This document shows, in pieces, positions 11,096 to 61,189 of a stretch of DNA of 64,000 bases. The notes under the pieces are model-generated. The model saw nothing but the letters and a program-made list of their open reading frames with translations. It had not been told where the DNA came from and searched no databases. Position numbers and translations under genes: made by a program. Within the stretch, counting starts at the first letter, position 1, and each line of letters begins with the position of its first letter. Source of the stretch: Heliocidaris erythrogramma (lineage: Eukaryota > Echinodermata > Echinoidea > Camarodonta > Echinometridae); contig CM046853.1 of assembly GCA_025617745.1 (NCBI GenBank), positions 7,994,873 through 8,058,872 of the forward strand, in the 5' to 3' direction.

Positions 11096-11121
11096 CAATT
11101 TTTTCTGACTTGTGTTTTTCA

Positions 11122-12620: not shown

Positions 12621-12997
12621 CCCCAAAATATCTATTTCCTTGGTGTGATGATTGTAAGTCATCATTGGTAAGTTTTTAATTTGTACGGGATGAAAATGAA
12701 AAGAAATAAATTTTCTGTCTCCTGTGCTTTTTAAGTGAAAAGATTTGTAATTTTGTTGGACCAATCCTTCTTAGAGTGTACATGTATGCCATACATTTCC
12801 AATCTGGTGATGGCGGAGGCATAAATTCCGATCGCGCGCGGAGATTCTAGATTAATCTAGTTTAATACTATATATGAAATTAACCTTTTGTAATAATGAT
12901 TCTATACACGTGATCTATTTACTTTTTGACAACTGCAAAAATATGTTTCTGTATAATCCCTTTCTGTCATTATCCTTTATAATAGGATCATCCAAAT

Positions 12998-17612: not shown

Positions 17613-36403
<18,791 letters not shown>

Positions 36404-36759
36404 TGTCAGCAAATCTGAAGACAAAAACCCCGAACAAACAGTGAAACAATCCGTCTTATGATCTCCGCCTCATTCACGTGCACGGTGTAGCAACTCAAAC
36501 TCAAGCGCTCAAGTCACCGTACATAAGTACATGTGCAAGATATTTATTTTCTTCCGGGTATTTTAATTCGTCAACTTTACGGAAGGTCAAAGTTTTTATC
36601 CAATCACAACACTTGTAAGATATGCATAGGCGCCCAATTTGCTCTTCAAAAGCGAGTTCAATATTATTGGGCTACTTTTAGCGACCAATAAGACTTCCGG
36701 TCCGCGACCAATAAGACTTCCGGTGTCTGCTAGCGCGGAAAACAATAGGATTTGGCGGT
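36404..36759. promoter_or_regulatory. Probable IMP4 promoter, possibly bidirectional, with E-box and CCAAT boxes
   Basis: The 350 bp upstream of the IMP4 ATG hold a CACGTG E-box at 36475-36480, about 75 bp before the ATG, and CCAAT at about 36600. Two GCGACCAATAAG boxes lie at about 36681 and 36704. E-boxes and CCAAT boxes are common at ribosome-biogenesis promoters, where MYC/MAX or USF and NF-Y can bind. The binding here is inference. No TATA box is evident. The GACCAATAAG boxes recur inverted at 58500-58615. Confidence 0.5.
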
Positions 36760-36861
36760 ATGGTGTCTTCAAAAGTTCCAATCGAAAATGAAAGTGTAAC
36801 ATGGGTGATAGAGATGATAAAATTAAACATAAAAAATATTACTCGACATTTTGATGTGAAG
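36760..36861 (+). CDS. Possible first coding exon of a divergent gene
   Basis: An ATG in a strong context (GGCGGTATGG) opens a 34-codon frame starting MVSSKVPIENESVTWVIEM. It ends exactly at GTGAAG|GTAAGC, a consensus donor, in phase 0. It lies just beyond two CCAAT boxes and points away from IMP4. I recognise no family and found no convincing second exon before the satellite begins at about 36985, so it may be a chance ORF or a truncated gene. Confidence 0.3.
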
Positions 36862-36984
36862 GTAAGCTAAGTCATATTATAGCAGAAAACATTTCCTATA
36901 AGATGTTATAATTTCAGAGCTGAAAACTTTCGATTTCAATTTTTAAGTTGAGATTGTTTTTTTGATTGATACATCCCAAATGCA

Positions 36985-39900
36985 CCCAAATTGTTTTAAC
37001 TTTGAAGCCTTTTAAAACTATCGTATGACATTTTAACTAAATAATGACTTATATCAGATGAAAGCTGAATAGTTGCTCTTTACTCTCATATAAGTCACAT
37101 GCCGAAACTTTTTGTCTGGGTCTTACTGTTTTAAAGTGAAATTAGGGCTCAAAACGTCATACGGGAGGTCTTATCCGCACAATATAGCGGAAATGTACAG
37201 AATTCGTTTTTAACTTTTACAACTATCGTATGACATTTTAACTAAATAATGACTTATATCAGATGAAAGCTGAATAGTTGCTCTTTACTCTCATATAGGT
37301 CACATGCCGAAACTTTTTGTCTGGGTCTTACTGTTTTAAATTGAATCCAAGGCTGTAACCGGCATACGGGAGGCCTCATCCGCACAGTACACACGGAAAT
37401 GGACGAAATGCGTTTTTATCTTTTAATGCTTTTTAAACTATCGTATGACATTTTAACTAAATAATGACTTATATCAGATGAAAGCTGAATAGTTGCTCTT
37501 TACTCTCATATAAGTCACATGCCGAAACTTTTTGTCTGGGTCTTACTGTTTTAAAGTGAAATTAGGGCTCAAAACGTCATACGGGAGGTCTTATCCGCAC
37601 AATATAGCGGAAATGTACAGAATTCGTTTTTAACTTTTACAACTATCGTATGACATTTTAACTAAATAATGACTTATATCAGATGAAAGCTGAATAGTTG
37701 CTCTTTACTCTCATATAGGTCACATGCCGAAACTTTTTGTCTGGGTCTTACTGTTTTAAATTGAATCCAAGGCTGTAACCGGCATACGGGAGGCCTCATC
37801 CGCACAGTACACACGGAAATGGACGAAATGCGTTTTTATCTTTTAATGCTTTTTAAACTATCGTATGACATTTTAACTAAATAATGACTTATATCAGATG
37901 AAAGCTGAATAGTTGCTCTTTACTCTCATATAAGTCACATGCCGAAACTTTTTGTCTGGGTCTTACTGTTTTAAAGTGAAATTAGGGCTCAAAACGTCAT
38001 ACGGGAGGTCTTATCCGCACAATATAGCGGAAATGTACAGAATTCGTTTTTAACTTTTACAACTATCGTATGACATTTTAACTAAATAATGACTTATATC
38101 AGATGAAAGCTGAATAGTTGCTCTTTACTCTCATATAGGTCACATGCCGAAACTTTTTGTCTGGGTCTTACTGTTTTAAATTGAATCCAAGGCTGTAACC
38201 GGCATACGGGAGGCCTCATCCGCACAGTACACACGGAAATGGACGAAATGCGTTTTTATCTTTTAATGCTTTTTAAACTATCGTATGACATTTTAACTAA
38301 ATAATGACTTATATCAGATGAAAGCTGAATAGTTGCTCTTTACTCTCATATAAGTCACATGCCGAAACTTTTTGTCTGGGTCTTACTGTTTTAAAGTGAA
38401 ATTAGGGCTCAAAACGTCATACGGGAGGTCTTATCCGCACAATATAGCGGAAATGTACAGAATTCGTTTTTAACTTTTACAACTATCGTATGACATTTTA
38501 ACTAAATAATGACTTATATCAGATGAAAGCTGAATAGTTGCTCTTTACTCTCATATAGGTCACATGTCGAAACTTTTTGTCTGGGCCTTACTGTTTTAAA
38601 GTGAAATCAGGGCTCAAAACGTCATACCGGAGGTCTTATCCGCACAATATAGCGGAAATGTACAGAATTCGTTTTTAACTTTAAAGCCTTTTAAAACTAT
38701 CTTATGACATTTTAACTAATTAATGACCTATATGAGATAAAAGCTGAATAGTTGCTCTTTACTCTCATATAGGTCACATGCCGAAACTTTTTGTCTGGGT
38801 CTTACTGTTTTAAATTGAATCCAAGGCTGTAACCGGCATACGGGAGGCCTCATCCGCACAGTACACACGGAAATGGACGAAATGCGTTTTTATCTTTTAA
38901 TGCTTTTTAAACTATCGTATGACATTTTAACTAAATAATGACTTATATCAGATGAAAGCTGAATAGTTGCTCTTTACTCTCATATAAGTCACATGCCGAA
39001 ACTTTTTGTCTGGGTCTTACTGTTTTAAAGTGAAATTAGGGCTCAAAACGTCATACGGGAGGTCTTATCCGCACAATATAGCGGAAATGTACAGAATTCG
39101 TTTTTAACTTTTACAACTATCGTATGACATTTTAACTAAATAATGACTTATATCAGATGAAAGCTGAATAGTTGCTCTTTACTCTCATAGATGTCACATG
39201 TCGAAACTTTTTGTCTTGGTCTTACTGTTTTAAATTGAATCCAAGGCTGTAACCGGCATACGGGAGGCCTCATCCGCACAGTACACACGGAAATGGACGA
39301 AATGCGTTTTTATCTTTTAATGCTTTTTAAACTATCGTATGACATTTTAACTAAATAATGACTTATATCAGATGAAAGCTGAATAGTTGCTCTTTACTCT
39401 CATATAGGTCACATGCCGAAACTTTTTGTCTGGGTCTTACTGTTTTAAATTGAATCCAAGGCTGTAACCGGCATACGGGAGGCCTCATCCGCACAGTACA
39501 CACGGAAATGGACGAAATGCGTTTTTATCTTTTAATGCTTTTTAAACTATCGTATGACATTTTAACTAAATAATGACTTATATCAGATGAAAGCTGAATA
39601 GTTGCTCTTTACTCTCATATAAGTCACATGCCGAAACTTTTTGTCTGGGTCTTACTGTTTTAAAGTGAAATTAGGGCTCAAAACGTCATACGGGAGGTCT
39701 TATCCGCACAATATAGCGGAAATGTACAGAATTCGTTTTTAACTTTTACAACTATCGTATGACATTTTAACTAAATAATGACTTATATCAGATGAAAGCT
39801 GAATAGTTGCTCTTTACTCTCATAGATGTCACATGCCGAAACTTTTTGTCTGGGTCTTACTGTTTTAAAGTGAAATCAGGGCTCAAAACGTCATACCGGA

Positions 39901-40095
39901 GGTCTTATCCGCACAATATAGCGGAAATGTACAGAATTCGTTTTTAATTTAAAGCCTTTTAAAACTGTCGTATGACATTTTAACTAAAGAATGATCTATA
40001 TGAGATGAAAGCTGAATAGTTGCTCTTTACTCTCATATAGGTCACATGCCGAAACTTTTTGTCTGGGTCTAACTGTTTTAAAATGAAATCAGGGC
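36985..40095 (+). repeat. Satellite array, left arm (A/B dimer of 420 bp)
   Basis: Two monomer types of 205 and 215 bp alternate to give a 420-bp dimer, with successive copies at 37021, 37441, 37861 and 38281 identical over long stretches. Each monomer holds ACTATCGTATGACATTTTAA, GAAAGCTGAATAGTTGCTCT, CCGAAACTTTTTGTCTGGG and CTTATCCGCAC or CTCATCCGCAC. After about 38500 the dimer order becomes irregular. The near-identity of dimers implies recent amplification. Confidence 0.97.
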
Positions 40096-41325
40096 TGAAA
40101 CCTGCGTTTTCTCCCTTTTCTTGTCATTCCTGGACACAAATCGTTTTTTGTTTGTTTGTTGAGTGCTTGATCTGGGCATGCAAAGGCGTTGCAGGAATGC
40201 AAAGATTTTATAGGGGGATGTCAAATCTTCTTTTGAGGGGAATATGCCCCCATCGATCCTTACGTCGGATCACTACGTTCCCTGGTGACAAGAAACGCCA
40301 CTCTAGCATTAGCTCTTTATTTTTGCCCCCAGATGTCAGGAATATCGAGAACATGATTCCCACTATATTGCATTTTGGAATTTGATATAAAGTAATTAAA
40401 CATATATAGACATTTTACTAGATATAGAGCAGCAATAGTTTATTTAATAGGGACATGATTTTAAATGCAATATTGCGCGGGAAGGGGATATATAAAAAGG
40501 TAAAAATTGAGAAATCCGAAACACAAGTGGCGAAAATGAGAAATGTTTTTTAGCGAGGGGAGGGGCTATACAAAAGGGACAGAAAAACATAAGTGGTAAG
40601 GGGGAGGAGCAAAAGCACTGCTCCTAAGAAGGGAGTGGACATAAATCATTATCGCCAGTAAAAGCAAATTAAATTATGACGATAGTATAAGAAACTGGTG
40701 GGGGGGGGGGGCTTGCCTCTCTTTTAAATCAATACTCTTAACAATTTTTCAAAAATCTAATTGTTTACAAATATTTAAAAAAATTGAATAAAATTAGCAT
40801 AAATTATAAAATCTATGAACACTGTTTTTAACATATAATATAGGTCATCACAAATAATCAAATCGTTTGCTCAATCTGTTTTTTCAAACTATTTTAACTA
40901 CTTATTTACATAATATGAATTTCATATACTATTTCCCAATGAATGACTTTCAGAAGTCATTCCGTAAAGCTGTTTCATTTCATATTTTGCATCATATTTC
41001 AAATAGATTTCCACGAACATGACATATCAAAGCTAAAATGCCACGGCATTCTTGAAAACTGGATACATATTCAAAGTTCACAGTTTGAGCAATGCTTATT
41101 CTGGTTGAAAAGTCATTTTGCGTTTTCTGTAAAGAATCAATAATTAAAATACTTAATATGTCATATATCTGATGATGAATGATTGACATGAAACTCAACA
41201 GTTGTGAAAGTACCTCGTATTTGTTTATTTATCAATTTATCTTTTAATTAAAAATTTAATTAATTTAAAAAAATAATTACGATATTAATAATATTCTTCT
41301 CTTAAACTTGAAAATTCTTTGAGAA
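40096..41325. other. Unique-looking spacer, no gene seen
   Basis: AT-rich with a short G run near 40700. ORFs of 66 and 108 aa lack family character, and the first begins inside the last satellite monomer. Confidence 0.45.
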
Positions 41326-42461
41326 TGTCATTCCATAACGCTTGGAATTACAGCAAAATAAAACGGGGGTCATACCTATAGCTAGAAGGTCCGATAGACC
41401 GACACCCAATAGATGGTTCGATAGACTGAATGTACGAGAGGATCCAATATAGTCCGAAGGTTCTATAGATCGAATGACCAACGGGTCCGATAGTCAGAAG
41501 GTCCGATAGATATAAGGTTCGATAGTCCGAATGTACATGAGGGTCAAATAGACAGAAGGTTCTATAGACCGAATCGGCAAAAGGGTCCGAATCGTCCGAT
41601 AGTCCGAAGATTCAGTAGGGGTCCAATAGTTAGAAGGTCCGATAGACCGACAATAAATACGTAAAAATGGTAAAATAGTGGATAGAAAATAAGTGGTTAA
41701 AATAAGTGGGGGCGTTATGTTTTCAAATCGTCAGCCCGTACCGTCCGTCCGTCCCCTATTTGCGCTCTCGGGATAACTTGGGAAACATTCGACGGATCAA
41801 CTTCAAACTTGGCTCATCTAGAGGAATGACTATTATCTGATTTATATTTTGGGGTCACAGGGTCAAAGGTAACAAAGGTTTTTGTGTCATTCCATAACGC
41901 TTGGAATTACAGCAAAATAAAACGGGGGTCATACCTATAGCTAGAAGGTCCGATAGTTAGCGGGTCCGATAGACCGACACCCAATAGATGGTTCGATAGA
42001 CTGAATGTACGAGAGGATCCAATATAGTCCGAAGGTTCTATAGATCGAATGACCAACGGGTCCGATAGTCAGAAGGTCCGATAGATATAAGGTTCGATAG
42101 TCCGAATGTACATGAGGGTCAAATAGACAGAAGGTTCTATAGACCGAATCGGCAAAAGGGTCCGAATCGTCCGATAGTCCGAAGATTCAGTAGGGGTCCA
42201 ATAGTTAGAAGGTCCGATAGACCGACAATAAATACGTAAAAATGGTAAAATAGTGGATAGAAAATAAGTGGTTAAAATAAGTGGGGGCGTTATGTTTTCA
42301 AATCGTCAGCCCGTACCGTCCGTCCGTCCCCTATTTGCGCTCTCGGGATAACTTGGGAAACATTCGACGGATCAACTTCAAACTTGGCTCATCTAGAGGA
42401 ATGACTATTATCTGATTTATATTTTGGGGTCACAGGGTCAAAGGTAACAAAGGTTTTTGTG
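41326..42461 (+). repeat. Tandem duplication of about 560 bp, each with a TCCGATAG minisatellite
   Basis: TGTCATTCCATAACGCTTGG starts each copy at 41326 and 41885. The second differs mainly by a 16-18 bp insertion of GTTAGCGGGTCCGATA type. Each copy contains many GTCCGATAG and GTTCGATAG words and ends with CCGTCCGTCCGTCC and CACAGGGTCAAAGGT, which relate it to the GGCGGAGGCATA repeats. An inverted, shortened copy lies at 44229-44349. Confidence 0.92.
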
Positions 42462-42647
42462 TTCATAATGTCATGAGAAGCTTTGGAGATCACTTTAAAC
42501 ACAGCCCATGTACGTGTATGCACAGAGAAGTGACAATGCTTTTATTAATTTAATAGGACCCGGACCCTCAGTAATTTCAGATAATAATTGCAGTGACAAA
42601 AGTATTTTTTTAGCTCATTACATAGAGTGTAATAAATTGTAAAATAT

Positions 42648-42838
42648 CAAGGGCGTATCCAGGATTTCCTAATAGGGGGGCGCCAGGCATTATTGATCGC
42701 CGTCCTGGGGGAGGGGTCTAAACTTTGAAGCCTATTTAATGAACAACTTTTTTTTTTTGCTAGTCTTTTTTTTTACGACGGCCAATAGGGGGGGGGGGGG
42801 GGCGCCTGTTGCGTCACCCCCTGGATACGCCACTGAAT
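42648..42838. mobile_element. MITE-like hairpin with GGCGTATCCAGG ends
   Basis: GGCGTATCCAGGATT near 42652 and CCCTGGATACGCCACTG near 42833 are inverted, with GGGGGGCGCC and GGGGGGGCGCC runs just inside. A related pair, TGGCAGATCCAGGGGC near 44583 and CCTGGATCCGCCCC near 44716, frames another copy. Confidence 0.65.
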
Positions 42839-44228
42839 ATGAATATGCGATTTGTTTCTTATCCTTTATATGTATAAACTTATTTTGTTATTGCCAATCG
42901 GTCTCGTTGGCTGCCCATCTGGGGCCTGGTGGCCTTAAGTGCTACAGCTCCTGCATGCGAGTGATGTGCCGAATGGGCTTGTACCTTAAATTGTCGGTGA
43001 ACGGAGCAGCAAGAGGGTACCAGGCCTAACTGGGTGAGCTAAGTATTCCAACTGGGTGATGCGAAATGGAATTTGATTTAGGTAATAAACCTCCATTAAA
43101 ATCTTCACAATTATCATCATTATGCAGCAAAGGTATTTAAGAGCTCTTTAACTCAGTGGAATATATAGAAATAGTTTCTGCGCTTATAAATGTTTTATTA
43201 TTATTATCAGTCCATGCTCACTCTACTCATCATCTTTTTAGGTTGTCCGCTTGGGGAGGACCTTATGCGTTTGTGTGACTCTCTGGGCGTAGGCCTGTTT
43301 GTCTGTTTGTGCCTGACGTCAACAAATATTATACACATATTTTCTTTTTACAAAATGTATTCTTTCTTTCATTGTCATTTTACCTCACACCTCTCACTGC
43401 CCCCTCTCTCTCTCGTTCGCTCGCTTTGCTCGCTCATACAATCAAGAAACTAGGCCTAGATTGTTTCTTGCAGCAAGCACCTCTTACGTCCTGCAGCAAG
43501 CCCGAATATCATAATATTCGGGCAGTGAGGTATCCGACTATTCTCGAATTCCCAACCCCCCTTCCCCCCCCCCAAAAAAAAAAATGGTATAATTTACCCG
43601 ACAGAGTCCACAGACTAAAATTTGCCAAAAGGTAGTAGTAACATTCACAAAAGTGTAAAAGCTAACATCATAGCTAGTAGGAAAATATCACCTGACAACC
43701 CTAAAAAAAAAATGGAAACGCCCCCTCCCAAGAAGGTGGTAGGGCCTAATTGAAACAATTTCATTTCTATCCGTCAGAATCTTTTGTTGTCAGAATCTTA
43801 TCTTTTGTTACTTTTAATGAAATTTTAACTATAAAGTGTGCACCCCGTAAGATTTCTTTGTTTAAAATATAACACTTGTGTTAGAAGGGACGCCCTTTCC
43901 TCAGTTTGCTCCACTAGAAAAGAAATGCTTCGGGCATGATGGGCCTCGGGGCTTTAGTGTGCACCATATAATTAGATTTCCATATTTCAAAAAATGGTCA
44001 GCGATCATGATGCTCTGATTAAAATACTTTTAACATGTTGAAAATGTATAAAACAAAACGATAAGTTCCACATTTTTGTATTTTTTTGGGGGGGGGGGGG
44101 TAGGCCTACAGACCTAGTGCATCGGTTTATTACAATACACATGGAAGAAGATAAGGCATTAACCTTTTCCTTTTATGAGATAAAACTATTAACAACTTAT
44201 TGTATCCACTTATTTTACCTTCTTTACG
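42839..44228. other. Centre of the mirrored region, no gene seen
   Basis: This sequence carries low-complexity C, G and A runs (43560-43590, 43700-43730, 44088-44100) and no supported exon. It lies between the two inverted copies of the TCCGATAG repeat. Confidence 0.45.
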
Positions 44229-44349
44229 TTATTGTCGGTCTATCGGACCTTCTAACTATCGGACCCCTACTGAACCTTCGGTCGATCGAACCTTCTATCT
44301 ATTGGGTGTCGGTCTATTGGACCCGCTAACTATCGGTCCTCTAGCTATA
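44229..44349 (-). repeat. Inverted, internally deleted copy of the TCCGATAG repeat
   Basis: Read on the minus strand it runs CTATAGCTAGAGGACCGATA, GACCGACACCCAATAGAT and then CAGTAGGGGTCCGATAGTTA, with GTCCGATAGACCGACAAT at the end. It thus matches both ends of the 41372-41655 unit with the middle missing. Confidence 0.85.
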
Positions 44350-45306
44350 GGGCTGTAACCAATAAAACGTTGTGAGAATGGCGGGGTGTGCCCCCTCGAC
44401 TCCTTTGTGACCCAAAACTCTTAACCCCCCCCCCCCCCCCCCGGTGTCCGGTTATATGCCTTGAAGGTTAAACTTTCTTTCTCGGCGGCTTAATTCCCTG
44501 ACTACTACCCCCCCCCCCCCTCCTCACACGTAAAACAAGATTTGAATGGAAAAAAACTGTCCTCCCTTTTATACTTCAAGCATTGGCAGATCCAGGGGCA
44601 CTTCCGGCCCGTGACCCCCCCCCCCCCCTCCCTGGAAGAAAAGTATGCATTTTGACCATAGAGGATCCGCCCTTTTGTCGATTGTGCCCCCCATACTAAA
44701 TCCTGGATCCGCCCCTGATTTAAGCACCCTGTGGTTGCGTCCTTTCTCGTTTTGCTCCCACTGAATTCTGATTTGGATTTTGAAAATTCAAATCCCTTTC
44801 TTATCATTTCGATTTACCTCAACTTCTAAGATTTTTAGGATTTATCTACTCAACACAAAACTGCCAATATGCTATAGTTTAAAGCCAGATTTCAATTTGC
44901 TACAGTAAGAAGCAGGGAAAAAATCCTTCGGTACCTGACATATAATTATACATACAGCCCCTCTCCCCCCGCCCCTCCTCCCCCACTTTTTGGAGTAGAC
45001 ACGATTCATAAAACCTCGACAAAAAGGTTCGAAAATTGTCATTTTATAATGAGTGAAATCAAATGAGCTCCCCCCCCCCCCACCCCCCACTTTCAAAAGC
45101 CGCTCCGCGGCCCCTGATTTTTGAGAGTGTAAGAGGTTAAATTAATTTTGTTCATGTTCTGAGTACATCAAGTTGTAAAGAAAAATTCTTCAACATTTAC
45201 CTTAATATGTATGCCATTATTTATTTATAATTTCATACAATGCTCTTCACGACAATCAAAGTTATAAAACAATTTATGTCCAACTTGATTTTACTTTCGA
45301 TTCAAC
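44350..45306. other. C-rich spacer with GATCCAGGGGC / CCTGGATCCGCC hairpin
   Basis: Several poly-C runs (44425-44442, 44508-44521, 44616-44630, 45068-45085) alternate with diverged TCCTGGATCCGCCCC-type words. ORFs rich in Gly are poly-C by-products. No gene is supported. Confidence 0.5.
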
Positions 45307-48300
45307 ACTGTGCGGAAAACAGCGAATATGCCGGTTTCCATGTGCACTGTGCGGATAAGACCTCCGGTATGCCGGTTACTGCCCTGAATTCAATTTAAAA
45401 CAGTAAGGCCCAGACAAAAAGTTTCGGCATGTGACATATATGAGAGTAAAGAGCAACTATTCAGCTTTAACCTCATATGAATCATTCTTGAGTTAAAATG
45501 TCATACGACAGTTTTAGAAAGTATTCAAAGATAAAAATGAATTTTGTACATTTCCCTGTGTAGCATGCGGATGAGGCCTCCCGTATGCCGGTTACAGCCT
45601 TGGATTCACTTTAAAACAGTAAGACCCAGACAAAAAGTTTCGGCATGTGACCTATATGAGATTAAAGAGCAACTATTCAGCTTTCATCCCATATAGGTCA
45701 TGATTTAGTTAAAATGTCATACGACAGTTTTAAAAGGCTTTAAAGTTAAAAACGAATTCTGTACATTTCCGCTCTATTGTGCGGATAAGACCTCCGGAAT
45801 GACGTGTTGAGCCCTAATTTCACTTTAAAACAGTAAGACCCAGACAAAAAGTTTCGGCATGTGACCTGTATGAGATTAAAGAGCAACTATTCAGCTTTCA
45901 TCCCATATAGGTCATGATTTAGTTAAAATGTCATACGATAGTTTTAAAAGGCTTTAAAGTTAAAAACGAATTCTGTACATTTCCGCTCTATTGTGCGGAT
46001 AAGACCTCCGGAATGACGTGTTGAGCCCTAATTTCACTTCAAAACAGTAAGACCCAGACAAAAAGTTTCGGCATGTGACCTATATGAGAGTAAAGAGCAA
46101 CTATTCAGCTTTGATCTCATGTAGGTCATTTTTTAGTTAAAATGTCATACGATAGTTTTAAAAGGCTTTAAAGTTAGAAACGCATTCCGTCCATTTCCGT
46201 GTGTACTGTGCGGATAAGACGGCACGTATGCCGGTTACAGCCTTGGATTCAATTTAAAACAGTAAGACCCAGACAGAAAGTTTCGGCATGTGACCTATAT
46301 GAGAGTAAAGAGCAAGTATTTAGCTTTCCTCTCATATAAGTCATTATTTAGTTAAAATGTCATACGATAGTTTTAAAAGGCTTTAAAGTTAAAAACGAAT
46401 TCTGTACATTTCCGCTATATTGTGCGGATAAGACCTCCGGTATGAGGTTTCGAGCCCTAATTTCAATTTAAAACAGTAAGACCCAGACAAAAAGTTTCGG
46501 CATGTGACCTATATGAGATTAAAGATCAACTATTCAGCTTTAATATCATGTAGGTCATTATTTAGTTAAAATGTCATACAATAGTTTTAAAAGCCCTAAA
46601 AGTTAAAAACGAATTCTGTACATTTCCGCTATATTATGCGGATAAACCTCCGGTATGACGTTTCTAGCCCTAATTTCAATTTAAAACAGTAAGACCCAGA
46701 CAAAAAGTTTCGGCATGTGACCTATATGAGAGTAAAGAGCAACTATTCAGCTTTGATCTCATATAGGTCATTATTTAGTTAAAATGTCATACGATAGTTT
46801 TAAAAGGCTTTAAAGTTAAAAACTAATTCTGGACATTTCCGCTCTATTGTGCGGATAAGACCTCCGGTATGAGGTTTCGAGCCCTAATTTCAATTTAAAA
46901 CAGTAAGACCCAGACAAAAAGTTTCGGCATGTGACGTATATGAGATTAAAGATCAACTATTCAGCTTTGATCTCATGTAGGTCATTATTTAGTTAAAATG
47001 TCATACGATAGTTTTAAAAGCCCTAAAAGTTAAAAACGAATTCTGTACATTTCCGCTATATTATGCGGATAAGACCTCCGGTATGACGTTTCGAGCCCTA
47101 ATTTCAATTTAGAACAGTAAGACCCAGACAAAAAGTTTCGGCATGTGACCTATATGAGAGTAAAGAGCAACTATTCAGCTTTGATCTCATATAGGTCATT
47201 ATTTAGTTAAAATGTCATACGATAGTTTTAAAAGGCTTTAAAGTTAAAAACGAATTCTGGACATTTCCGCTCTATTGTGCGGATAAGACCTCCGTATGAC
47301 GTTTTCAGCCCTAACTTCACTTTAAAACAGTAAGACCCAGACAAAAAGTTTCGGCATGTGACGTATATGAGATTAAAGATCAACTATTCAGCTTTGATCT
47401 CATGTAGGTCATTATTTAGTTAAAATGTCATACGATAGTTTTAAAAGCCCTGAAAGTTAAAAACGAATTCTGTACATTTCCGCTATATTATGCGGATAAG
47501 ACCTCCGGTATGACGTTTCGAGCCCTAATTTCAATTTAAAACAGTAAGACCCAGACAAAAAGTTTCGGCATGTGACCTGTATGAGATTAAAGAGCAACTA
47601 TTCAGCTTTCATCCCATATAGGTCATGATTTAGTTAAAATGTCATACGATAGTTTTAAAAGGCTTTAAAGTTAAAAACGAATTCTGTACATTTCCGCTCT
47701 ATTGTGCGGATAAGACCTCCGGAATGACGTGTTGAGCCCTAATTTCACTTCAAAACAGTAAGACCCAGACAAAAAGTTTCGGCATGTGACCTATATGAGA
47801 GTAAAGAGCAACTATTCAGCTTTGATCTCATGTAGGTCATTTTTTAGTTAAAATGTCATACGATAGTTTTAAAAGGCTTTAAAGTTAGAAACGCATTCCG
47901 TCCATTTCCGTGTGTACTGTGCGGATAAGACGGCACGTATGCCGGTTACAGCCTTGGATTCAATTTAAAACAGTAAGACCCAGACAGAAAGTTTCGGCAT
48001 GTGACCTATATGAGAGTAAAGAGCAACTATTTAGCTTTCCTCTCATATAAGTCATTATTTAGTTAAAATGTCAAACGATAGTTTAAAAAGCATTAAAAGA
48101 TAAAAACGCATTTCGTCCATTTCCGTGTGTACTGTGCGGATAAGACGGCACGTATGCCGGTTACAGCCTTGGATTCAATTTAAAACAGTAAGACCCAGAC
48201 AAAAAATTTCGGCATGTGACTTATATGAGAGTAAAGAGCAACTATTTAGCTTCCATCTCATATAGGTCATTATTTAGTTAAAATGTCATACGATAGTTTT

Positions 48301-51300
48301 AAAAGGCTTTAAAGTTAAAAACGAATTCTGTACATTTCCGCTATATTGTGCGGATAAGACCTCCCGTATGCCAGTTACAGCCTTGGATTCAATTTAAAAC
48401 AGTAAGACCCAGACAAAAAGTTTCGGCAGGTGACCTACATGAGAGTAAAGAGCAACTATTCAGCTTTTATCTCATAGAAGTCATTATTTAGTTAAAATGT
48501 CATACGATAGTTTAAAAAGCATTAAAAGATAAAAACGCATTTCGTCCATTTCCGTGTGTACTGTGCGGATAAGACGGCACGTATGCCGGTTACAGCCTTG
48601 GATTCAATTTAAAACAGTAAGACCCAGACAAAAAGTTTCAGCATGTGACCTATATGAGATTAAAGATCAACTATTCAGCTTTAATATCATGTAGGTCATT
48701 ATTTAGTTAAAATGTCATACAATAGTTTTAAAAGCCCTGAAAGTTAAAAACGAATTCTGGACATTTCCGCTATATTATGCGGATAAACCTCCGGTATGAC
48801 GTTTCTAGCCCTATATTTCAATTTAAAACAGTAAGACCCAGACAAAAAGTTTCGGCATGTGACCTATATGACAGTAAAGAGCAACTATTCAGCTTTGATC
48901 TCATATAGGTCATTATTTAGTTAAAATGTCATACGATAGTTTTAAAAGGCTTTAAAGTTAAAAACGAATTCTGGACATTTCCGCTCTATTGTGCGGATAA
49001 GACCTCCGGTATGAGGTTTCGAGCCCTAATTTCAATTTAAAACAGTAAGACCCAGACAAAAAGTTTCGGCATGTGACCTATATGAGATTAAAGATCAACT
49101 ATTCAGCTTTAATATCATGTAGGTCATTATTTAGTTAAAATGTCATACGATAGTTTTAAAAGCCCTAAAAGTTAAAAACGAATTCTGTACATTTCCGCTA
49201 TATTATGCGGATAAGACCTCCGGTATGACGTTTCTAGCCCTAATTTCAATTTAAAACAGTAAGACCCAGACAAAAAGTTTCGGCATGTGACCTATATGAG
49301 AGTAAAGAGCAACTATTCAGCTTTGATCTCATGTAGGTCATTATTTAGTTAAAATGTCATACGATAGTTTTAAAAGCCCTAAAAGTTAAAAACGAATTCT
49401 GTACATTTCCGCTATATTATGCGGATAAGACCTCCGGTATGACGTTTCGAGCCCTAATTTCAATTTAGAACAGTAAGACCCAGACAAAAAGTTTCGGCAT
49501 GTGACCTATATGAGAGTAAAGAGCAACTATTCAGCTTTGATCTCATATAGGTCATTATTTAGTTAAAATGTCATACGATAGTTTTAAAAGGCTTTAAAGT
49601 TAAAAACGAATTCTGGACATTTCCGCTCTATTGTGCGGATAAGACCTCCGGTATGACGTTTTCAGCCCTAACTTCACTTTAAAACAGTAAGACCCAGACA
49701 AAAAGTTTCGGCATGTGACGTATATGAGATTAAAGATCAACTATTCAGCTTTGATCTCATGTAGGTCATTATTTAGTTAAAATGTCATACGATAGTTTTA
49801 AAAGCCCTGAAAGTTAAAAACGAATTCTGTACATTTCCGCTATATTATGCGGATAAGACCTCCGGTATGACGTTTCGAGCCCTAATTTCAATTTAAAACA
49901 GTAAGACCCAGACAAAAAGTTTCGGCATGTGACCTGTATGAGATTAAAGAGCAACTATTCAGCTTTCATCCCATATAGGTCATGATTTAGTTAAAATGTC
50001 ATACGATAGTTTTAAAAGGCTTTAAAGTTAAAAACGAATTCTGTACATTTCCGCTCTATTGTGCGGATAAGACCTCCGGAATGACGTGTTGAGCCCTAAT
50101 TTCACTTCAAAACAGTAAGACCCAGACAAAAAGTTTCGGCATGTGACCTATATGAGAGTAAAGAGCAACTATTCAGCTTTGATCTCATGTAGGTCATTTT
50201 TTAGTTAAAATGTCATACGATAGTTTTAAAAGGCTTTAAAGTTAGAAACGCATTCCGTCCATTTCCGTGTGTACTGTGCGGATAAGACGGCACGTATGCC
50301 GGTTACAGCCTTGGATTCAATTTAAAACAGTAAGACCCAGACAGAAAGTTTCGGCATGTGACCTATATGAGAGTAAAGAGCAACTATTTAGCTTTCCTCT
50401 CATATAAGTCATTATTTAGTTAAAATGTCAAACGATAGTTTAAAAAGCATTAAAAGATAAAAACGCATTTCGTCCATTTCCGTGTGTACTGTGCGGATAA
50501 GACGGCACGTATGCCGGTTACAGCCTTGGATTCAATTTAAAACAGTAAGACCCAGACAAAAAATTTCGGCATGTGACTTATATGAGAGTAAAGAGCAACT
50601 ATTTAGCTTCCATCTCATATAGGTCATTATTTAGTTAAAATGTCATACGATAGTTTTAAAAGGCTTTAAAGTTAAAAACGAATTCTGTACATTTCCGCTA
50701 TATTGTGCGGATAAGACCTCCCGTATGCCAGTTACAGCCTTGGATTCAATTTAAAACAGTAAGACCCAGACAAAAAGTTTCGGCAGGTGACCTACATGAG
50801 AGTAAAGAGCAACTATTCAGCTTTTATCTCATAGAAGTCATTATTTAGTTAAAATGTCATACGATAGTTTAAAAAGCATTAAAAGATAAAAACGCATTTC
50901 GTCCATTTCCGTGTGTACTGTGCGGATAAGACGGCACGTATGCCGGTTACAGCCTTGGATTCAATTTAAAACAGTAAGACCCAGACAAAAAGTTTCAGCA
51001 TGTGACCTATATGAGATTAAAGATCAACTATTCAGCTTTAATATCATGTAGGTCATTATTTAGTTAAAATGTCATACAATAGTTTTAAAAGCCCTGAAAG
51101 TTAAAAACGAATTCTGGACATTTCCGCTATATTATGCGGATAAACCTCCGGTATGACGTTTCTAGCCCTATATTTCAATTTAAAACAGTAAGACCCAGAC
51201 AAAAAGTTTCGGCATGTGACCTATATGACAGTAAAGAGCAACTATTCAGCTTTGATCTCATATAGGTCATTATTTAGTTAAAATGTCATACGATAGTTTT

Positions 51301-53177
51301 AAAAGGCTTTAAAGTTAAAAACGAATTCTGGACATTTCCGCTCTATTGTGCGGATAAGACCTCCGGTATGAGGTTTCGAGCCCTAATTTCAATTTAAAAC
51401 AGTAAGACCCAGACAAAAAGTTTCGGCATGTGACCTATATGAGATTAAAGATCAACTATTCAGCTTTAATATCATGTAGGTCATTATTTAGTTAAAATGT
51501 CATACGATAGTTTTAAAAGCCCTAAAAGTTAAAAACGAATTCTGTACATTTCCGCTATATTATGCGGATAAGACCTCCGGTATGACGTTTCGAGCCCTAA
51601 TTTCAATTTAGAACAGTAAGACCCAGACAAAAAGTTTCGGCATGTGACCTATATGAGAGTAAAGAGCAACTATTCAGCTTTGATCTCATATAGGTCATTA
51701 TTTAGTTAAAATGTCATACGATAGTTTTAAAAGGCTTTAAAGTTAAAAACGAATTCTGGACATTTCCGCTCTATTGTGCGGATAAGACCTCCGGTATGAC
51801 GTTTTCAGCCCTAACTTCACTTTAAAACAGTAAGACCCAGACAAAAAGTTTCGGCATGTGACGTATATGAGATTAAAGATCAACTATTCAGCTTTGATCT
51901 CATGTAGGTCATTATTTAGTTAAAATGTCATACAATAGTTTTAAAAGCCCTGAAAGTTAAAAACGAATTCTGTACATTTCCGCTATATTATGCGGATAAA
52001 CCTCCGGTATGACGTTTCTAGCCCTAATTTCAATTTAAAACAGTAAGACCCAGACAAAAAGTTTCGGCATGTGACCTATATGAGAGTAAAGAGCAACTAT
52101 TCAGCTTTGATCTCATATAGGTCATTATTTAGTTAAAATGTCATACGATAGTTTTAAAAGGCTTTAAAGTTAAAAACGAATTCTGGACATTTCCGCTCTA
52201 TTGTGCGGATAAGACCTCCGGTATGACGTTTTCAGCCCTAACTTCACTTTAAAACAGTAAGACCCAGACAAAAAGTTTCGGCATGTGACGTATATGAGAT
52301 TAAAGATCAACTATTCAGCTTTGATCCCATGTAGGTCATTATTTAGTTAAAATGTCATACGATAGTTTTAAAAGCCCTGAAAGTTAAAAACGAATTCTGT
52401 ACATTTCCGCTATATTATGCGGATAAGACCTCCGGTATGACGTTTCGAGCCCTAATTTCAATTTAAAACAGTAAGACCCAGACAAAATGTTTCGGCATGT
52501 GACCTATATGAGATTAAAGATCAACTATTCAGCTTTAATATCATGTAGGTCATTATTTAGTTAAAATGTCATACAATAGTTTTAAAAGCCCTGAAAGTTA
52601 AAAACGAATTCTGTACATTTCCGCTATATTATGCGGATAAACCTCCGGTATGACGTTTCTAGCCCTAATTTCAATTTAAAACAGTAAGACCCAGACAAAA
52701 AGTTTCGGCATGTGACCTATATGAGAGTAAAGAGCAACTATTCAGCTTTGATCTCATATAGGTCATTATTTAGTTAAAATGTCATACGATAGTTTTAAAA
52801 GGCTTTAAAGTTAAAAACTAATTCTGGACATTTCCGCTCTATTGTGCGGATAAGACCTCCGGTATGAGGTTTCGAGCCCTAATTTCACTTTAAAACAGTA
52901 AGACCCAGACAAAAAGTTTCGGCATGTGACGTATATGAGATTAAAGATCAACTATTCAGCTTTGATCTCATGTAGGTCATTATTTAGTTAAAATGTCATA
53001 CGATAGTTTTAAAAGCCCTAAAAGTTAAAAACGAATTCTGTACATTTCCGCTATATTATGCGGATAAGACCTCCGGTATGACGTTTCGAGCCCTAATTTC
53101 AATTTAGAACAGTAAGACCCAGACAAAAAGTTTCGGCATGTGACCTATATGAGAGTAAAGAGCAACTATTCAGCTTT
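45307..53177 (-). repeat. Satellite array, right arm part 1, inverted relative to the left arm
   Basis: The same satellite runs in the opposite direction. Each monomer shows CAGTAAGACCCAGACAAAAA, GTTTCGGCATGTGACC and GAGAGTAAAGAGCAACTATT, then TTAGTTAAAATGTCATACGA. Monomers differ mainly in the segment around GCGGATAAGACCTCCGG. A higher-order repeat of 2,357 bp (about eleven monomers) is visible: TGTGACCTGTATGAG at 47571 and 49928, and TTAGCTTTCC at 48031 and 50388. Confidence 0.97.
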
Positions 53178-53556
53178 CATACTAAAAGCTTTGTTATCCA
53201 TTGAATAAGATAATGAAATGATGTTGGGCTTTAAATATTCTCTACTGGGTTTGTTAAAATAGAACACCAAACAGAAGTTACAGAAGTTTTACAATGTATA
53301 TTCCTTTTCAACATTATATGCTCGTGTGGAAAACATTCTATAACATTTTTGAATTACGATTGATTTTCAAAGGCATGTTTTGGAAGATATTTTATGAAAA
53401 TTGTACTAGTAGAAATGATTGATAAAATTTTATGCTAATGATTTATTCTATGACTGACCTACCGACTGACTATTTATACATGTATAGCTACTGGCACACA
53501 GGACTCTAGTGGTCAAAAGTGCCATTCCTTTTTACTACAACAACAACAACAACAAC
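53178..53556 (+). mobile_element. 379-bp insertion with CAA tail and ATTCAGCTTT target duplication
   Basis: The satellite is broken exactly at ATTCAGCTTT (53168-53177), and that 10-mer is repeated after the insert (53557-53566). The insert ends in six CAA/ACA units. A 10-bp or longer duplication and a simple tail point to LINE-mediated retrotransposition of a short element. No tRNA-like boxes are seen. Uninterrupted counterparts of the site occur in neighbouring higher-order copies. Confidence 0.85.
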
Positions 53557-54791
53557 ATTCAGCTTTGATCTCATATAGGTCATTATTTAGTTAAAATGTC
53601 ATACGATAGTTTTAAAAGGCTTTAAAGTTAAAAACGAATTCTGGACATTTCCGCTCTATTGTGCGGATAAGACCTCCGGTATGACGTTTTCAGCCCTAAC
53701 TTCACTTTAAAACAGTAAGACCCAGACAAAAAGTTTCGGCATGTGACGTATATGAGATTAAAGATCAACTATTCAGCTTTGATCTCATGTAGGTCATTAT
53801 TTAGTTAAAATGTCATACGATAGTTTTAAAAGCCCTGAAAGTTAAAAACGAATTCTGTACATTTCCGCTATATTATGCGGATAAGACCTCCGGTATGACG
53901 TTTCGAGCCCTAATTTCAATTTAAAACAGTAAGACCCAGACAAAAAGTTTCGGCATGTGACCTATATGAGATTAAAGAGCAACTATTCAGCTTTCATCCC
54001 ATATAGGTCATGATTTAGTTAAAATGTCATACGATAGTTTTAAAAGGCTTTAAAGTTAAAAACGAATTCTGTACATTTCCGCTCTATTGTGCGGATAAGA
54101 CCTCCGGAATGACGTGTTGAGCCCTAATTTCACTTCAAAACAGTAAGACCCAGACAAAAAGTTTCGGCATGTGACCTATATGAGAGTAAAGAGCAACTAT
54201 TCAGCTTTGATCTCATGTAGGTCATTTTTTAGTTAAAATGTCATACGATAGTTTTAAAAGGCTTTAAAGTTAGAAACGCATTCCGTCCATTTCCGTGTGT
54301 ACTGTGCGGATAAGACGGCACGTATGCCGGTTACAGCCTTGGATTCAATTTAAAACAGTAAGACCCAGACAGAAAGTTTCGGCATGTGACCTATATGAGA
54401 GTAAAGAGCAAGTATTTAGCTTTCCTCTCATATAAGTCATTATTTAGTTAAAATGTCATACGATAGTTTAAAAAGCATTAAAAGATAAAAACGCATTCCG
54501 TCCATTTCCGTGTGTACTGTGCGGATAAGACGGCACGTATGCCGGTTACAGCCTTGGATTCAATTTAAAACAGTAAGACCCAGACAGAAAGTTTCGGCAT
54601 GTGACCTATATGAGAGTAAAGAGCAACTATTTAGCTTTCCTCTCATATAAGTCATTATTTAGTTAAAATGTCAAACGATAGTTTAAAAAGCATTAAAAGA
54701 TAAAAACGCATTTCGTCCATTTCCGTGTGTACTGTGCGGATAAGACGGCACGTATGCCGGTTACAGCCTTGGATTCAATTTAAAACAGTAA
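53557..54791 (-). repeat. Satellite array, right arm part 2
   Basis: The array resumes at the duplicated ATTCAGCTTT and continues in the same orientation as part 1. Confidence 0.95.
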
Positions 54792-55521
54792 TGCCTAGGT
54801 CAGACGGACAGATACGCGCGATACGCATGTCTGCGGATGTGCATCCGTAAAAAATCCGTAGAAATCCGCAGCAATCCGTATCATGCGTATCATCCGTAAG
54901 TGCATCCGTAAAAATCCGTGGGAGTGCGCAGGAATCGAGGTCTTCCGCGAAAAAGTTTTGAAAATCTCAAAATTATTTTAAATTTCCCGCGCAAGGTCTT
55001 TTGCGCAGAATTTAGGTAGAATTTGCGTATTGTTCCGTATCATGCGTATTGATCCGTATCTTTGCGTATTTTTGCGTAAAACGTCCGTATCCATCCGTAA
55101 CCTAATCCGCAGGATCCGCAGACATACGCAGATCCGCAGCGTGAATTTTGAAAATCTCAAAATTCTGAAAATTTTCATTTTGAAAATCTCAAAATTCTGC
55201 TGCGGATGAAATATACGTAAGCATCCGCAAAATATACGTTATCCATACATAAACTACGTAACTCATACGTATCGTCCGTAAGTCATCCGTAAGTCGTCCG
55301 TGACATGTGTCAGCGGGTTGGCAGCGGATGGGCTCATCAACAGGTTTTACCCGTAACATCCGTAATTCATACGTAACATCCGTAACTAATCCGTATCGTC
55401 CGCAGAATATAGGTAACTTTTGCTCAAATTTGCGTTATTTGGGGGTAAAAATTACGCATTTTCATTATCCAAATATACGCAGGCATCCGCAGGTCCGTAA
55501 CATGGCCGTGTGACTATTGCA
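54792..55521. mobile_element. 730-bp PIF/Harbinger-like insertion with TAA duplication, interior of CATCCGTAA micro-repeats
   Basis: The satellite word CAGTAAGACCC is split so that TAA appears at both ends (54789-54791 and 55522-55524). A 3-bp TAA duplication is the mark of PIF/Harbinger elements. The ends (TGCCTAGGTCAGACGG and, reversed, TGCAATAGTCACACGG) are imperfect inverted repeats. The interior is almost wholly made of ATCCGTAA, ATCCGCAG, CATACGTAA and TGCGTATT-type words, with no transposase. Empty sites in the same array lie at about 48189 and 50546. Confidence 0.85.
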
Positions 55522-58425
55522 TAAGACCCAGACAAAAAATTTCGGCATGTGACTTATATGAGAGTAAAGAGCAACTATTTAGCTTCCATCTCATATAGGT
55601 CATTATTTAGTTAAAATGTCATACGATAGTTTTAAAAGGCTTTAAAGTTAAAAACGAATTCTGGACATTTCCGCTATATTGTGCGGATAAGACCTCCCGT
55701 ATGCCAGTTACAGCCTTGGATTCAATTTAAAACAGTAAGACCCAGACAAAAAGTTTCGGCAGGTGACCTACATGAGAGTAAAGAGCAACTATTCAGCTTT
55801 TATCTCATAGAAGTCATTATTTAGTTAAAATGTCATACGATAGTTTAAAAAGCATTAAAAGATAAAAACGCATTTCGTCCATTTCCGTGTGTACTGTGCG
55901 GATAAGACGGCACGTATGCCGGTTACAGCCTTGGATTCAATTTAAAACAGTAAGACCCAGACAAAAAGTTTCAGCATGTGACCTATATGAGATTAAAGAT
56001 CAACTATTCAGCTTTAATATCATGTAGGTCATTATTTAGTTAAAATGTCATACAATAGTTTTAAAAGCCCTGAAAGTTAAAAACGAATTCTGGACATTTC
56101 CGCTATATTATGCGGATAAACCTCCGGTATGACGTTTCTAGCCCTATATTTCAATTTAAAACAGTAAGACCCAGACAAAAAGTTTCGGCATGTGACCTAT
56201 ATGACAGTAAAGAGCAACTATTCAGCTTTGATCTCATATAGGTCATTATTTAGTTAAAATGTCATACGATAGTTTTAAAAGGCTTTAAAGTTAAAAACGA
56301 ATTCTGGACATTTCCGCTCTATTGTGCGGATAAGACCTCCGGTATGAGGTTTCGAGCCCTAATTTCAATTTAAAACAGTAAGACCCAGACAAAAAGTTTC
56401 GGCATGTGACCTATATGAGATTAAAGATCAACTATTCAGCTTTAATATCATGTAGGTCATTATTTAGTTAAAATGTCATACAATAGTTTTAAAAGCCCTG
56501 AAAGTTAAAAACGAATTCTGTACATTTCCGCTATATTATGCGGATAAACCTCCGGTATGACGTTTCTAGCCCTAATTTCAATTTAAAACAGTAAGACCCA
56601 GACAAAAAGTTTCGGCATGTGACCTATATGAGAGTAAAGAGCAACTATTCAGCTTTGATCTCATATAGGTCATTATTTAGTTAAAATGTCATACGATAGT
56701 TTTAAAAGGCTTTAAAGTTAAAAACGAATTCTGGACATTTCCGCTCTATTGTGCGGATAAGACCTCCGGTATGACGTTTTCAGCCCTAACTTCACTTTAA
56801 AACAGTAAGACCCAGACAAAAAGTTTCGGCATGTGACGTATATGAGATTAAAGATCAACTATTCAGCTTTGATCTCATGTAGGTCATTATTTAGTTAAAA
56901 TGTCATACGATAGTTTTAAAAGCCCTGAAAGTTAAAAACGAATTCTGTACATTTCCGCTATATTATGCGGATAAGACCTCCGGTATGACGTTTCGAGCCC
57001 TAATTTCAATTTAAAACAGTAAGACCCAGACAAAATGTTTCGGCATGTGACCTATATGAGATTAAAGATCAACTATTCAGCTTTAATATCATGTAGGTCA
57101 TTATTTAGTTAAAATGTCATACAATAGTTTTAAAAGCCCTGAAAGTTAAAAACGAATTCTGTACATTTCCGCTATATTATGCGGATAAACCTCCGGTATG
57201 ACGTTTCTAGCCCTAATTTCAATTTAAAACAGTAAGACCCAGACAAAAAGTTTCGGCATGTGACCTATATGAGAGTAAAGAGCAACTATTCAGCTTTGAT
57301 CTCATATAGGTCATTATTTAGTTAAAATGTCATACGATAGTTTTAAAAGGCTTTAAAGTTAAAAACTAATTCTGGACATTTCCGCTCTATTGTGCGGATA
57401 AGACCTCCGGTATGAGGTTTCGAGCCCTAATTTCAATTTAAAACAGTAAGACCCAGACAAAAAGTTTCGGCATGTGACGTATATGAGATTAAAGATCAAC
57501 TATTCAGCTTTGATCTCATATAGGTCATTATTTAGTTAAAATGTCATACGATAGTTTTAAAAGCCCTGAAAGTTAAAAACGAATTCTGTACATTTCTGCT
57601 ATATTATGCGGATAAGACCTCCGGTATGACGTTTCGAGCCATATTTTCATCTTAAAACAGTAAGACCCAGACAAAAAGTTTCGGCATGTGACCTATATGA
57701 GAGTAAAGAGCAACTATTCAGCTTTGATCTCATATAGGTCATTATTTAGTTAAAATGTCATACGATAGTTTTAAAAGGCTTTAAAGTTAAAAACGAATTC
57801 TGGACATTTCCGCTCTATTGTGCGGATAAGACCTCCGGTATGACGTTTTGAGCCATATTTTCATCTTAAAACAGTAAGACCCAGACAAAAAGTTTCGGCA
57901 TGTGACCTATATGAGAGTAAAGAGCAACTATTCAGCTTTGATCTCATGTAGGTCATTATTTAGTTAAAATGTCATACGATAGTTTTAAAAGGCTTTAAAG
58001 TTAAAAACGAATTCTGTACATTTCCGCTATAATGTGCGGATAAGACCTCCGGTATGACGTTTCGAGCCCTAATTTCAATTTAAAACAGTAAGACCCAGAC
58101 AAAAAGTTTCGGCATGTGACCTATATGAGATTAAAAATCAACTATTCAGCTTTGATCTCATGTAGGTCATTATTTAGTTAAAATGTCATACGATAGTTTT
58201 AAAAGCCCTGAAAGTTAAAAACGAATTCTGTACATTTCCGCTATATTATGCGGATAAGACCTCCGGTATGACGTTTCGAGCCCTAATTTCAATTTAAAAC
58301 AGTAAGACCCAGACAAAAAGTTTCGGCATGTGACCTATATGAGAGTAAAGAGCAACTATCCAGCTTTCATCTCATATAAGTCATTGTTTAGTTAAAATGT
58401 TATACGATAGTTTTAAAAGCATTCC
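55522..58425 (-). repeat. Satellite array, right arm part 3
   Basis: The array resumes with AAGACCCAGAC and runs to AGTTTTAAAAGC at about 58421, where unique sequence starts. The order of monomer variants partly repeats that of part 1. Confidence 0.96.
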
Positions 58426-58499
58426 AATCTAGTCTTTCATTCCCATTGACGTTATCGCCAACCGAGATCCGCAAAATTTTCTTTTTCCTTTTTGATTTG

Positions 58500-58615
58500 A
58501 GATTTTGACGACACTATAAACTCTTTTATTGGTCCGCTGGCTTCCCTTATTGGTCGCTGGCTTATTGGTCGCCAGTTTCAAGGAGCGTTCAATATTGGAC
58601 CGACGATTTAGTTTT
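58500..58615 (-). promoter_or_regulatory. Cluster of inverted CCAAT boxes mirroring the IMP4 side
   Basis: Read on the minus strand, GCGACCAATAAG occurs twice and GCGGACCAATAAAAG once within 80 bp, next to GTCCAATATTGAACG. The IMP4 side at 36655-36715 has GTTCAATATTATTGG and two GCGACCAATAAG boxes in the plus direction. Each cluster lies 100-300 bp outside a satellite arm and points towards it. Activity is not known. Confidence 0.5.
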
Positions 58616-60545: not shown

Positions 60546-60550
60546 GCTAA

Positions 60551-61055
60551 GGTACAAATAACCAAAGTCGACCTCACCCATTAGTATGGCTAGTCGCATC
60601 GCTTAATTTCGGCAGGTAAGATAGAAATTTGTACTTACATTTCAAGAGAATTACTGTAACTATCTAAGAGGCTCTTTGATTTTATGATTTAACGATTATT
60701 TCGATGAAAAAAAAATGGAATTTCCTCGCCGAGCCGATCTTTCCCCGTACTGTACCGTCGATTCAAATGACTCGATCGCACTGTGTGATCGAGTCAGCGA
60801 CGGTATACGGTACACATTACGCACCGTGCGATCGAGTCATTTGAATCGACAGTACAGTACAGGGAAAGATCGGCTCGGCGAGGAAATTCCATTTTTTTTC
60901 ATCGAAATATTAGGTAAATCGTAAAATCAAAGAGCCTCCTAGATAGTTACAGTAATTCTCTTGAAATGTAAGTACAAATTTCTATCTTACCTGCCGAAAT
61001 TAAGCGATGCGACTAGCCATACTAATGGGCGAGGTCGACTTTGGTTATTTGTACC
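60551..61055. mobile_element. 505-bp near-perfect palindrome
   Basis: GGTACAAATAACCAAAGTCG at 60551 and its reverse complement ending at 61055 bound two arms of about 230 bp. They pair with only a few mismatches (for example CACCCATT against AATGGGCG). The centre carries a nested hairpin, GACTCGATCGCACTG and TGTGATCGAGTC. The 60 and 69 aa ORFs are by-products. A foldback MITE is the likely nature. Confidence 0.9.
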
Positions 61056-61189
61056 TGGAGTTAGGCTATAGCGACCATTCTAAAAGAGGGCGATATTTTT
61101 GATGGGGGTTGAATAAAAAAATGGGGCATGGAAATTTTTTTGGGGTATTCTATTTCTCTGTCTCCTCAGCCTTTTCCACAGTATATCTA

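Follow-up and report, generated by a model that had tools for sequence, protein, structure and literature searches.

A giant foldback transposon with satellite arms, most likely of Mutator type, in the sea urchin Heliocidaris erythrogramma

A 64,000-nucleotide stretch of the genome of the sea urchin Heliocidaris erythrogramma (GenBank assembly GCA_025617745.1, contig CM046853.1, positions 7,994,873 to 8,058,872; hereafter the window) contains a single transposon of 21,922 bp, element A, which spans positions 36666 to 58587 and consists, in order, of an end with CCAAT boxes, a satellite array in plus orientation, a core, an inverted satellite array, and an inverted CCAAT-box end. We are highly confident that this block is a non-autonomous, giant cut-and-paste foldback transposon, most likely mobilised by a Mutator-type (Mutator-like element [MULE]/IS256-like) transposase. 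The TU elements of sea urchins and the FB elements of Drosophila likewise have a foldback shape and arm repeats, but their repeat units are short.

The ends of element A were fixed by the aligned flanks of its copies, and the same 9-bp target-site duplication (TSD), TTCAATATT, stands on either side (Table 1). An initial annotation of the window had placed a mirrored block at 36500 to 58615, built of three mutually inverted parts (CCAAT boxes, satellite, and TCCGATAG repeats), had judged a chance arrangement unlikely, and had offered two origins, either a giant satellite-armed foldback transposon or an inverted duplication that is old and whose satellite was later amplified. Pattern searches and a self comparison of the window confirmed that all three parts exist and are mutually inverted, with opposed satellite arms and an inverted TCCGATAG pair. 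The mirrored block stands with its limits moved to 36666 and 58587; boxes and satellite belong to one unit, and the TCCGATAG pair has to be taken out of it, being the ends of a nested transposon, B, with a duplication of its own, AATAAAACG, and empty sites elsewhere. The two ends of A have a 12-bp box in common, in inverted sense, and GACCAATAAG occurs exactly twice on the plus strand (36683, 36706) and twice on the minus strand (58546, 58561). In the outer flanks of the block, self comparison found no further homology between the two sides.

The genome searched comprised 1.06 Gb in 26 contigs (window, C1:7994873-8058872). A match to the first 35 bp of A (left end) or its last 27 bp (right end) was accepted with up to 3 mismatches; 118 left and 101 right ends were found, against 0 for each reversed-pattern control. 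Among the matches listed (100 of 118 left, 100 of 101 right), at least 64 left ends have a right-end partner in the correct order and strand, compared with about 0.3 expected at random by our own arithmetic. These 64 pairs involve 61 distinct right ends and leave 4.7 to 40 kb between the ends, and some are nested or composite. Ten other loci were fetched as 20-kb stretches, so that 11 elements, the window copy included, were read. The plan of left end, plus satellite, core, minus satellite, and right end recurs at eight of the ten (at C16 with an altered left tip, at C9a joined to a neighbour); at C18 and C7, no left arm was found in the fetched DNA, which includes 500 N. Chance is excluded because the part order recurs at other loci.

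TSDs were tabulated for 15 loci, comprising 7 of the 11 fetched elements and 8 simple pairs hand-picked from the 64 (C16, C18, C7, and C9a, with an end altered, missing, or nested, were left out). All nine positions of the duplication agree at 10 loci, eight of nine at 2, seven of nine at 1, and none was found at 2. Core divergence among 11 copies is 0.15 to 1.5% (median, 0.75%), and A therefore spread recently. The TCCGATAG stretch at 44189-44351 has at least 54 genome matches (40 of 1111 candidates scored), of which 12, counting the one in the window, are 100% identical from end to end. All 20 fetched TCCGATAG loci have the surrounding core in common, and at 19 of the 20 (the window being one) the core runs into satellite in the same order, contrary to the possibility, raised with the initial annotation, that satellite and TCCGATAG repeats would turn up everywhere in unrelated orders and never together. 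Dispersed copies with TSDs attest to the mobility of A as a foldback element, and its tandem repeats vary in number as in such elements, from 5 to 23 monomers in left arms and 7 to 56 in right arms of the elements read; a 4.7-kb copy, L045, has ends and satellite without a core.

Some copies lie close together. At C12:15826117 (L060, L061), one A copy starts 9 bp past the right end of another, and the same 9 bp recur beyond the far side; further close tandem or tail-to-tail neighbours are present among the left- and right-end matches listed. The two pairs without TSD, L056-L059 (C6:26870206, C9:7360676), have short inverted matches, TGTAT/ATACA and CCGTC/GACGG, where a direct duplication would be expected.

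Satellite monomers are 205 to 216 bp long, and the right arm has a higher-order period of about 2357 bp, or 11 monomers, as judged from best matches. A conserved 30-bp stretch, used as the satellite anchor, has 2706 matches genome-wide. One hundred of these (exact, on C1 to C3) were placed by eye; they fall within end pairs or between two left ends, except for 3 of the 100, which are no more than 4.3 kb from an unpaired A left end. In a nearest-neighbour test on 384 monomers of 11 elements, 230.8 had their closest relative in their own arm, against 26.8 expected, and 1.5 had it in the element's opposite arm, against 13.7 expected. For 142.5 it lay in another element but on the same side (220.1 expected), and for 9.1 in another element on the other side (123.4 expected). 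Expansion of the arms is therefore local, with left and right arms forming distinct lineages. The innermost monomers are the most alike between elements (0.953 and 0.958, versus 0.905 and 0.895 mid-arm). Copies with cores diverged by 0.15 to 0.2% differ in arm lengths and monomer orders; they have some monomer types in common, and the innermost types hold their position. The monomer contains a potential hairpin with a 14-bp stem (z, −2.9; equalled in 2 of 200 shuffles). We hypothesise that monomers may act as extra transposase sites. A 730-bp insert in the right arm, rich in CCGTA/CGTA repeats by eye, is presumably Harbinger-like.

Core orientation was scored in the 64 end pairs by one mark per core end. 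Exactly one mark per core end was present in 24 pairs, 19 in the usual sense and 5 flipped; a right mark alone was found in 11 (6 usual, 5 flipped, some with the same right end), a left mark alone in 3 (usual), two right marks in 1 (usual), and a mixed pattern in 1. Such flipping is the outcome expected from recombination between inverted arms. The core marks are 5090 bp apart in the window copy, which has the tandem duplication of about 0.57 kb, versus about 4500 bp in most other copies. Slices of nine pairs without a left core mark gave diverged core in four (two also with satellite), coding DNA in C5, a retrotransposon-like frame in one (by eye), and nothing recognised in two; the ninth, C13:12374966, gave right-end-like sequence and a long interspersed nuclear element (LINE)-like frame and is probably composite. 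Two copies, L043 and L044, have left ends on both sides and host flanks that are inverted duplicates, over at least 38 bp in L043 and about 94 bp in L044, where the flank lies within a 319-column match (90.6%) that takes in the element's end. Palindromic flanks of this kind are the product expected of fold-back copying.

B is a separate, internally deleted MULE and not part of A proper. Of the TCCGATAG repeats, two tandem copies occupy 41374-42275 and those at 44189-44351 are inverted, and since the repeats are the end repeats of this separate transposon, the three inverted parts do not form one unit. In A copies L043 and L078, the sequences that flank B in the window are joined with a single 9-bp overlap. 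A 13.9-kb relative at C19 has inverted TCCGATAG ends and a 328-codon MULE-domain frame within a tandem duplication (PF10551; E value, 1.5e-11); the window copy of B is collinear with it minus about 11 kb (main gap at about 43390 to 43404) and smaller gaps. B thus shows the Mutator features of a MULE transposase domain between the same ends and a 9-bp TSD, the duplication being exact in the window, recognised by eye beside a C-run in a C6 copy, and blurred by an A-run in C19. The MULE match near A ends at C19 was considered as the transposase of A and rejected; at that locus, B is inserted beside A ends.

Three A copies carry coding DNA, two of them with a ubiquitin-protease (USP/UCH) domain, and the TSD of the C5 coding copy agrees at nine of nine positions. 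The first coding slice has 23 genome matches. A end pairs enclose the best three, at C5 (100%), at C13:26174277 (99%), and, in a pair that is probably composite, at C13:12375659 (76%, interrupted by a stop); below them come roughly twelve places at 59%, where open frames extend to as many as 1981 codons. A second slice, taken 2.2 kb further along, matches C5, the 1981-codon family, and, at 97% and with one stop, C13:26176553. It falls in the USP/UCH domain, although taken alone it scores below the curated Pfam cut-off. The E values against PF00443 are about 2e-27 for the 1981-codon loci, 1.8e-16 for the C13 copy, which has one stop, and 7.3e-6 for the C5 copy. A search of PDB with the USP piece gave no match at an E value of 1, and no match to PF10551 or PF20700 marked the C5 or C13 coding copies or the 1981-codon loci. 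The long C5/C13 protein may be the transposase of A. We tentatively consider it possible, short of probable, that A has an autonomous line whose C5/C13 protein, a relative of the 1981-codon family with its single open frames, combines a zinc-finger-like part, a USP-type deubiquitinase, and a putative transposase, and whose arms are adjustable subterminal arrays of transposase sites that permit sizes above 20 kb and act as a travelling satellite source. The 1981-codon USP/UCH family, with the full domain and nearly equal scores, was observed at C7:17687891-17690905, C8:3241838, C17:22727808, C16:25688087, and other loci.

The 9-bp TSD, complete at 10 of the 15 A loci, points to the Mutator group, for which excerpts of one account give TSDs of 8 to 11 bp, commonly 9 (PMC6446971), and A is probably a Mutator-type foldback element. 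A transposase supplied in trans would recognise the end boxes, and perhaps box-like sites in each monomer, and move the whole unit; arms would lengthen and shorten via block duplication and unequal exchange within each arm, occasional exchange between the inverted arms would flip the core, and fold-back copying at these arms would give palindromic copies that include host flank.

Several results weigh against this reading. Among 31 genome places that match PF10551, only one is near the listed A ends, and it belongs to B; none of the 56 places that match PF20700 is within the listed A pairs (compared by eye). A PHD finger, which would have pointed to kinship with Rehavkus, was found at none of the candidate coding loci among 150 of 1186 PHD candidates scored. 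Neither core mark is present in 24 of the 64 end pairs (six sampled, two 350-bp slices each), and the two of 15 loci without a TSD are perhaps recombinant. Beyond the shared box, the inverted repeat of the two ends is weak, because a direct-sense control passes shuffles too: in inverted sense, a 28/35 stretch 70 to 130 bp inside scores 35 versus a maximum of 30 in 200 shuffles, and in direct sense the score is 29 versus a shuffle maximum of 26. The left-end box and the monomer have ATAAGACYTCCGGT in common with a 13/14 match, which was reached by 0 of 200 shuffles with a 95-bp left end and 27 of 200 with a 325-bp left end, among eight comparisons made; the right end gave no such box match to the monomer (82 of 200 shuffles as good). 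This likeness is not robust to the end length used and is kept as a hint that the monomer may be an amplified terminus.

Of the two origins first proposed for the block, the giant foldback transposon with satellite arms is borne out by defined ends, 9-bp duplications, about 60 end pairs, and near-identical cores. An old local inverted duplication, one-off and not mobile, with satellite amplified later, would account for two arms that are inverted, unequal, and each equipped with its own higher-order repeat; it is very improbable, and refuted by dispersed copies with TSDs, since tens of loci have these ends, arms, and core, with 9-bp duplications and core divergence of 0.15 to 1.5%. We give almost no credence to the reading of the CCAAT clusters as host promoters with NF-Y and ETS-like sites, serving two genes between which satellite lies by chance. 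The left boxes do precede an ATG at 36760 with 34 open codons and a strong splice donor, yet boxes and open frame are inside the element and repeat with A, and the 34-residue peptide has no Pfam match at an E value of 1 and no PDB match at 10. Splice-site scans and open-frame lists revealed no convincing host gene inside the block, and Rfam at gathering scores gave one tRNA only, outside it.

That A comes from another foldback lineage (P superfamily, as Galileo; hAT; or a Helentron with central satellite) is unlikely. The absence of the catalytic-domain profiles from the listed A pairs favours it, and the foldback shape is convergent, Galileo having terminal inverted repeats (TIRs) with repeats of about 210 bp yet a P-type transposase and 7-bp TSDs (PMC3573991, in part); oyster Helentrons are described as carrying satellite-like arrays (PMC7492417, in part). 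The 9-bp TSDs of A at 10 loci are, however, unlike a 7-bp TSD. To our knowledge, Helentrons leave no TSD at all, which A would then be expected to lack. Alternatively, A might be moved in trans by a B-type MULE transposase, with the USP-domain coding DNA as a passenger, a doubtful but possible course of events: B, in the same genome, also has 9-bp duplications and a MULE domain, and MULEs are described as taking up host DNA (PMC6446971, in part), whereas the terminal letters of A differ from those of B and it is in A end pairs that the coding piece finds its three best genome matches. Mobilisation of A as a Mutator-type foldback element is the explanation we prefer.

Element A shows mobile DNA acting as a vehicle for satellite DNA, which it can spread and rearrange, with a satellite tied to a recently mobile element (monomers in or beside A, as placed for 100 of the 2706 matches). 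Its copies, whose arms differ in length and order where cores are only 0.15% apart, form a natural series for satellite expansion, inverted-array flips, palindrome formation, and the size limit of Mutator-type elements; an excerpt of one review states that a survey had no Pack-MULE longer than 7 kb (PMC6431247). With the USP domain of the coding copies, a further enzyme would join the proteases described together with transposon proteins, which part of one source gives as Ulp1 (Mutator elements), OTU (Helitrons), and a single peptidase C19 case from Trichomonas (PMC2836005).

Other features lie outside element A in the window. At 8256-12624 is a second foldback-like element, whose inverted arms consist of tandem repeats of 16/26 bp (CTATTCATAA...) and whose outer ends read GGGGT...; an exact 8-bp duplication, AAAATATC, stands at both ends. 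An inverted pair of 14-bp repeat arrays (CCGGACAACTACCC) at 645-1015 has a possible 8-bp duplication, GAAGAGTG, weakened by the search over offsets. Without clear target duplication are an inverted repeat at 19071-20747 (arms of about 0.57 kb, 86%) and a 0.5-kb palindrome at 60550-61056 (92%). Exons on the minus strand at 31120-32438, about 4 kb from the left end of A, are ones we take to be IMP4-like, and a reverse transcriptase open frame on the plus strand at 33564-34451 (PF00078; E value, 1.4e-28) is LINE-like by eye.

Table 1. Parts of element A and nested element B, with target-site duplications, in window coordinates (TRF, Tandem Repeats Finder)
Feature	Position	Strand	Basis
Left TSD of A, TTCAATATT, 9 bp	36657..36665	.	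flank alignment
A left end: tip asymmetric, GCGACCAATAAG box present twice (36681-36692, 36704-36715), inverted repeat weak and diverged	36666..36993	+	
Left satellite arm: array of a 420-bp dimer (205+215 bp) with 15 anchor sites, identity between monomer copies reaching 100%	36994..40100	+	
A core, the middle domain; recurs in other copies, flipped in some	40101..45306	+	
Tandem duplication of about 0.57 kb across the left end of B	41326..42462	+	self comparison
Left TSD of B, AATAAAACG, 9 bp	41916..41924	.	
Nested element B, inverted TCCGATAG minisatellite ends	41925..44360	+	collinear with 13.9-kb relative, empty sites
Right TSD of B, AATAAAACG, 9 bp	44361..44369	.	
Right satellite arm: 56 anchor sites, monomers of about 214 bp	45307..58419	-	TRF from 45348, partial monomer to about 45307 by eye
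Insert in right arm, 730 bp: TAA at 54789-54791 and 55522-55524, TGC...GCA ends, 11/16 inverted	54792..55521	.	by eye
A right end: inverted GACCAATAAG boxes (58546, 58561), tip CGCTCC read inward	58420..58587	-	
Right TSD of A, TTCAATATT, 9 bp	58588..58596	.	flank alignment

A literature search, with most subscription journals outside its reach, gave no title naming element A among its best-ranked results; the likenesses below are drawn from excerpts of the sources cited. Tetris of Drosophila virilis is the closest in design: it has a flanking domain, tandem repeats of about 220 bp in inverted arms, and a middle domain, is non-autonomous with 8- to 10-bp TSDs and many rearranged forms, and has been proposed for the Mutator superfamily (PMC4079207). 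Its TIRs reach 1,735 bp and three copies are structurally complete (PMC4079207), whereas the arms of A can be 13.1 kb long, its end pairs number about 60, and its core houses a nested second MULE-type element. Tm1 of root-knot nematodes (Mutator/foldback) resembles A in having a TSD of 9 bp, terminal motifs that are asymmetric and stand outside the inverted repeat, variable tandem repeats in the TIRs, and classes of middle part, one of which encodes a MULE transposase; its repeats are of about 14 bp, compared with about 210 bp in A (PMC3169594). Nested B is nearer to Tm1, with its short TCCGATAG repeats and a MULE protein in its long relative. Rehavkus is MULE-related and combines a 9-bp TSD with a minisatellite near the end (PMC6446971), and A likewise has a 9-bp TSD and repeats near its ends, with satellite in both arms and units longer than a minisatellite's; Rehavkus has a PHD finger and is recorded from arthropods and annelids (PMC6446971), and among the 150 of 1186 PHD candidates scored none lay at the candidate coding copies of A. 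Galileo of Drosophila has long TIRs in which units of about 210 bp are repeated in tandem, TIR lengths that change independently, and chimeric copies without matching TSDs, and its end repeats have been proposed as extra transposase sites (PMC3573991). It belongs to the P superfamily, with longest TIRs of about 1.26 kb and a 7-bp TSD (PMC3573991), which A does not share. Set beside Tetris and Tm1, A differs in the scale of its arms and of the element as a whole, in its nested MULE, and in its USP-coding copies.

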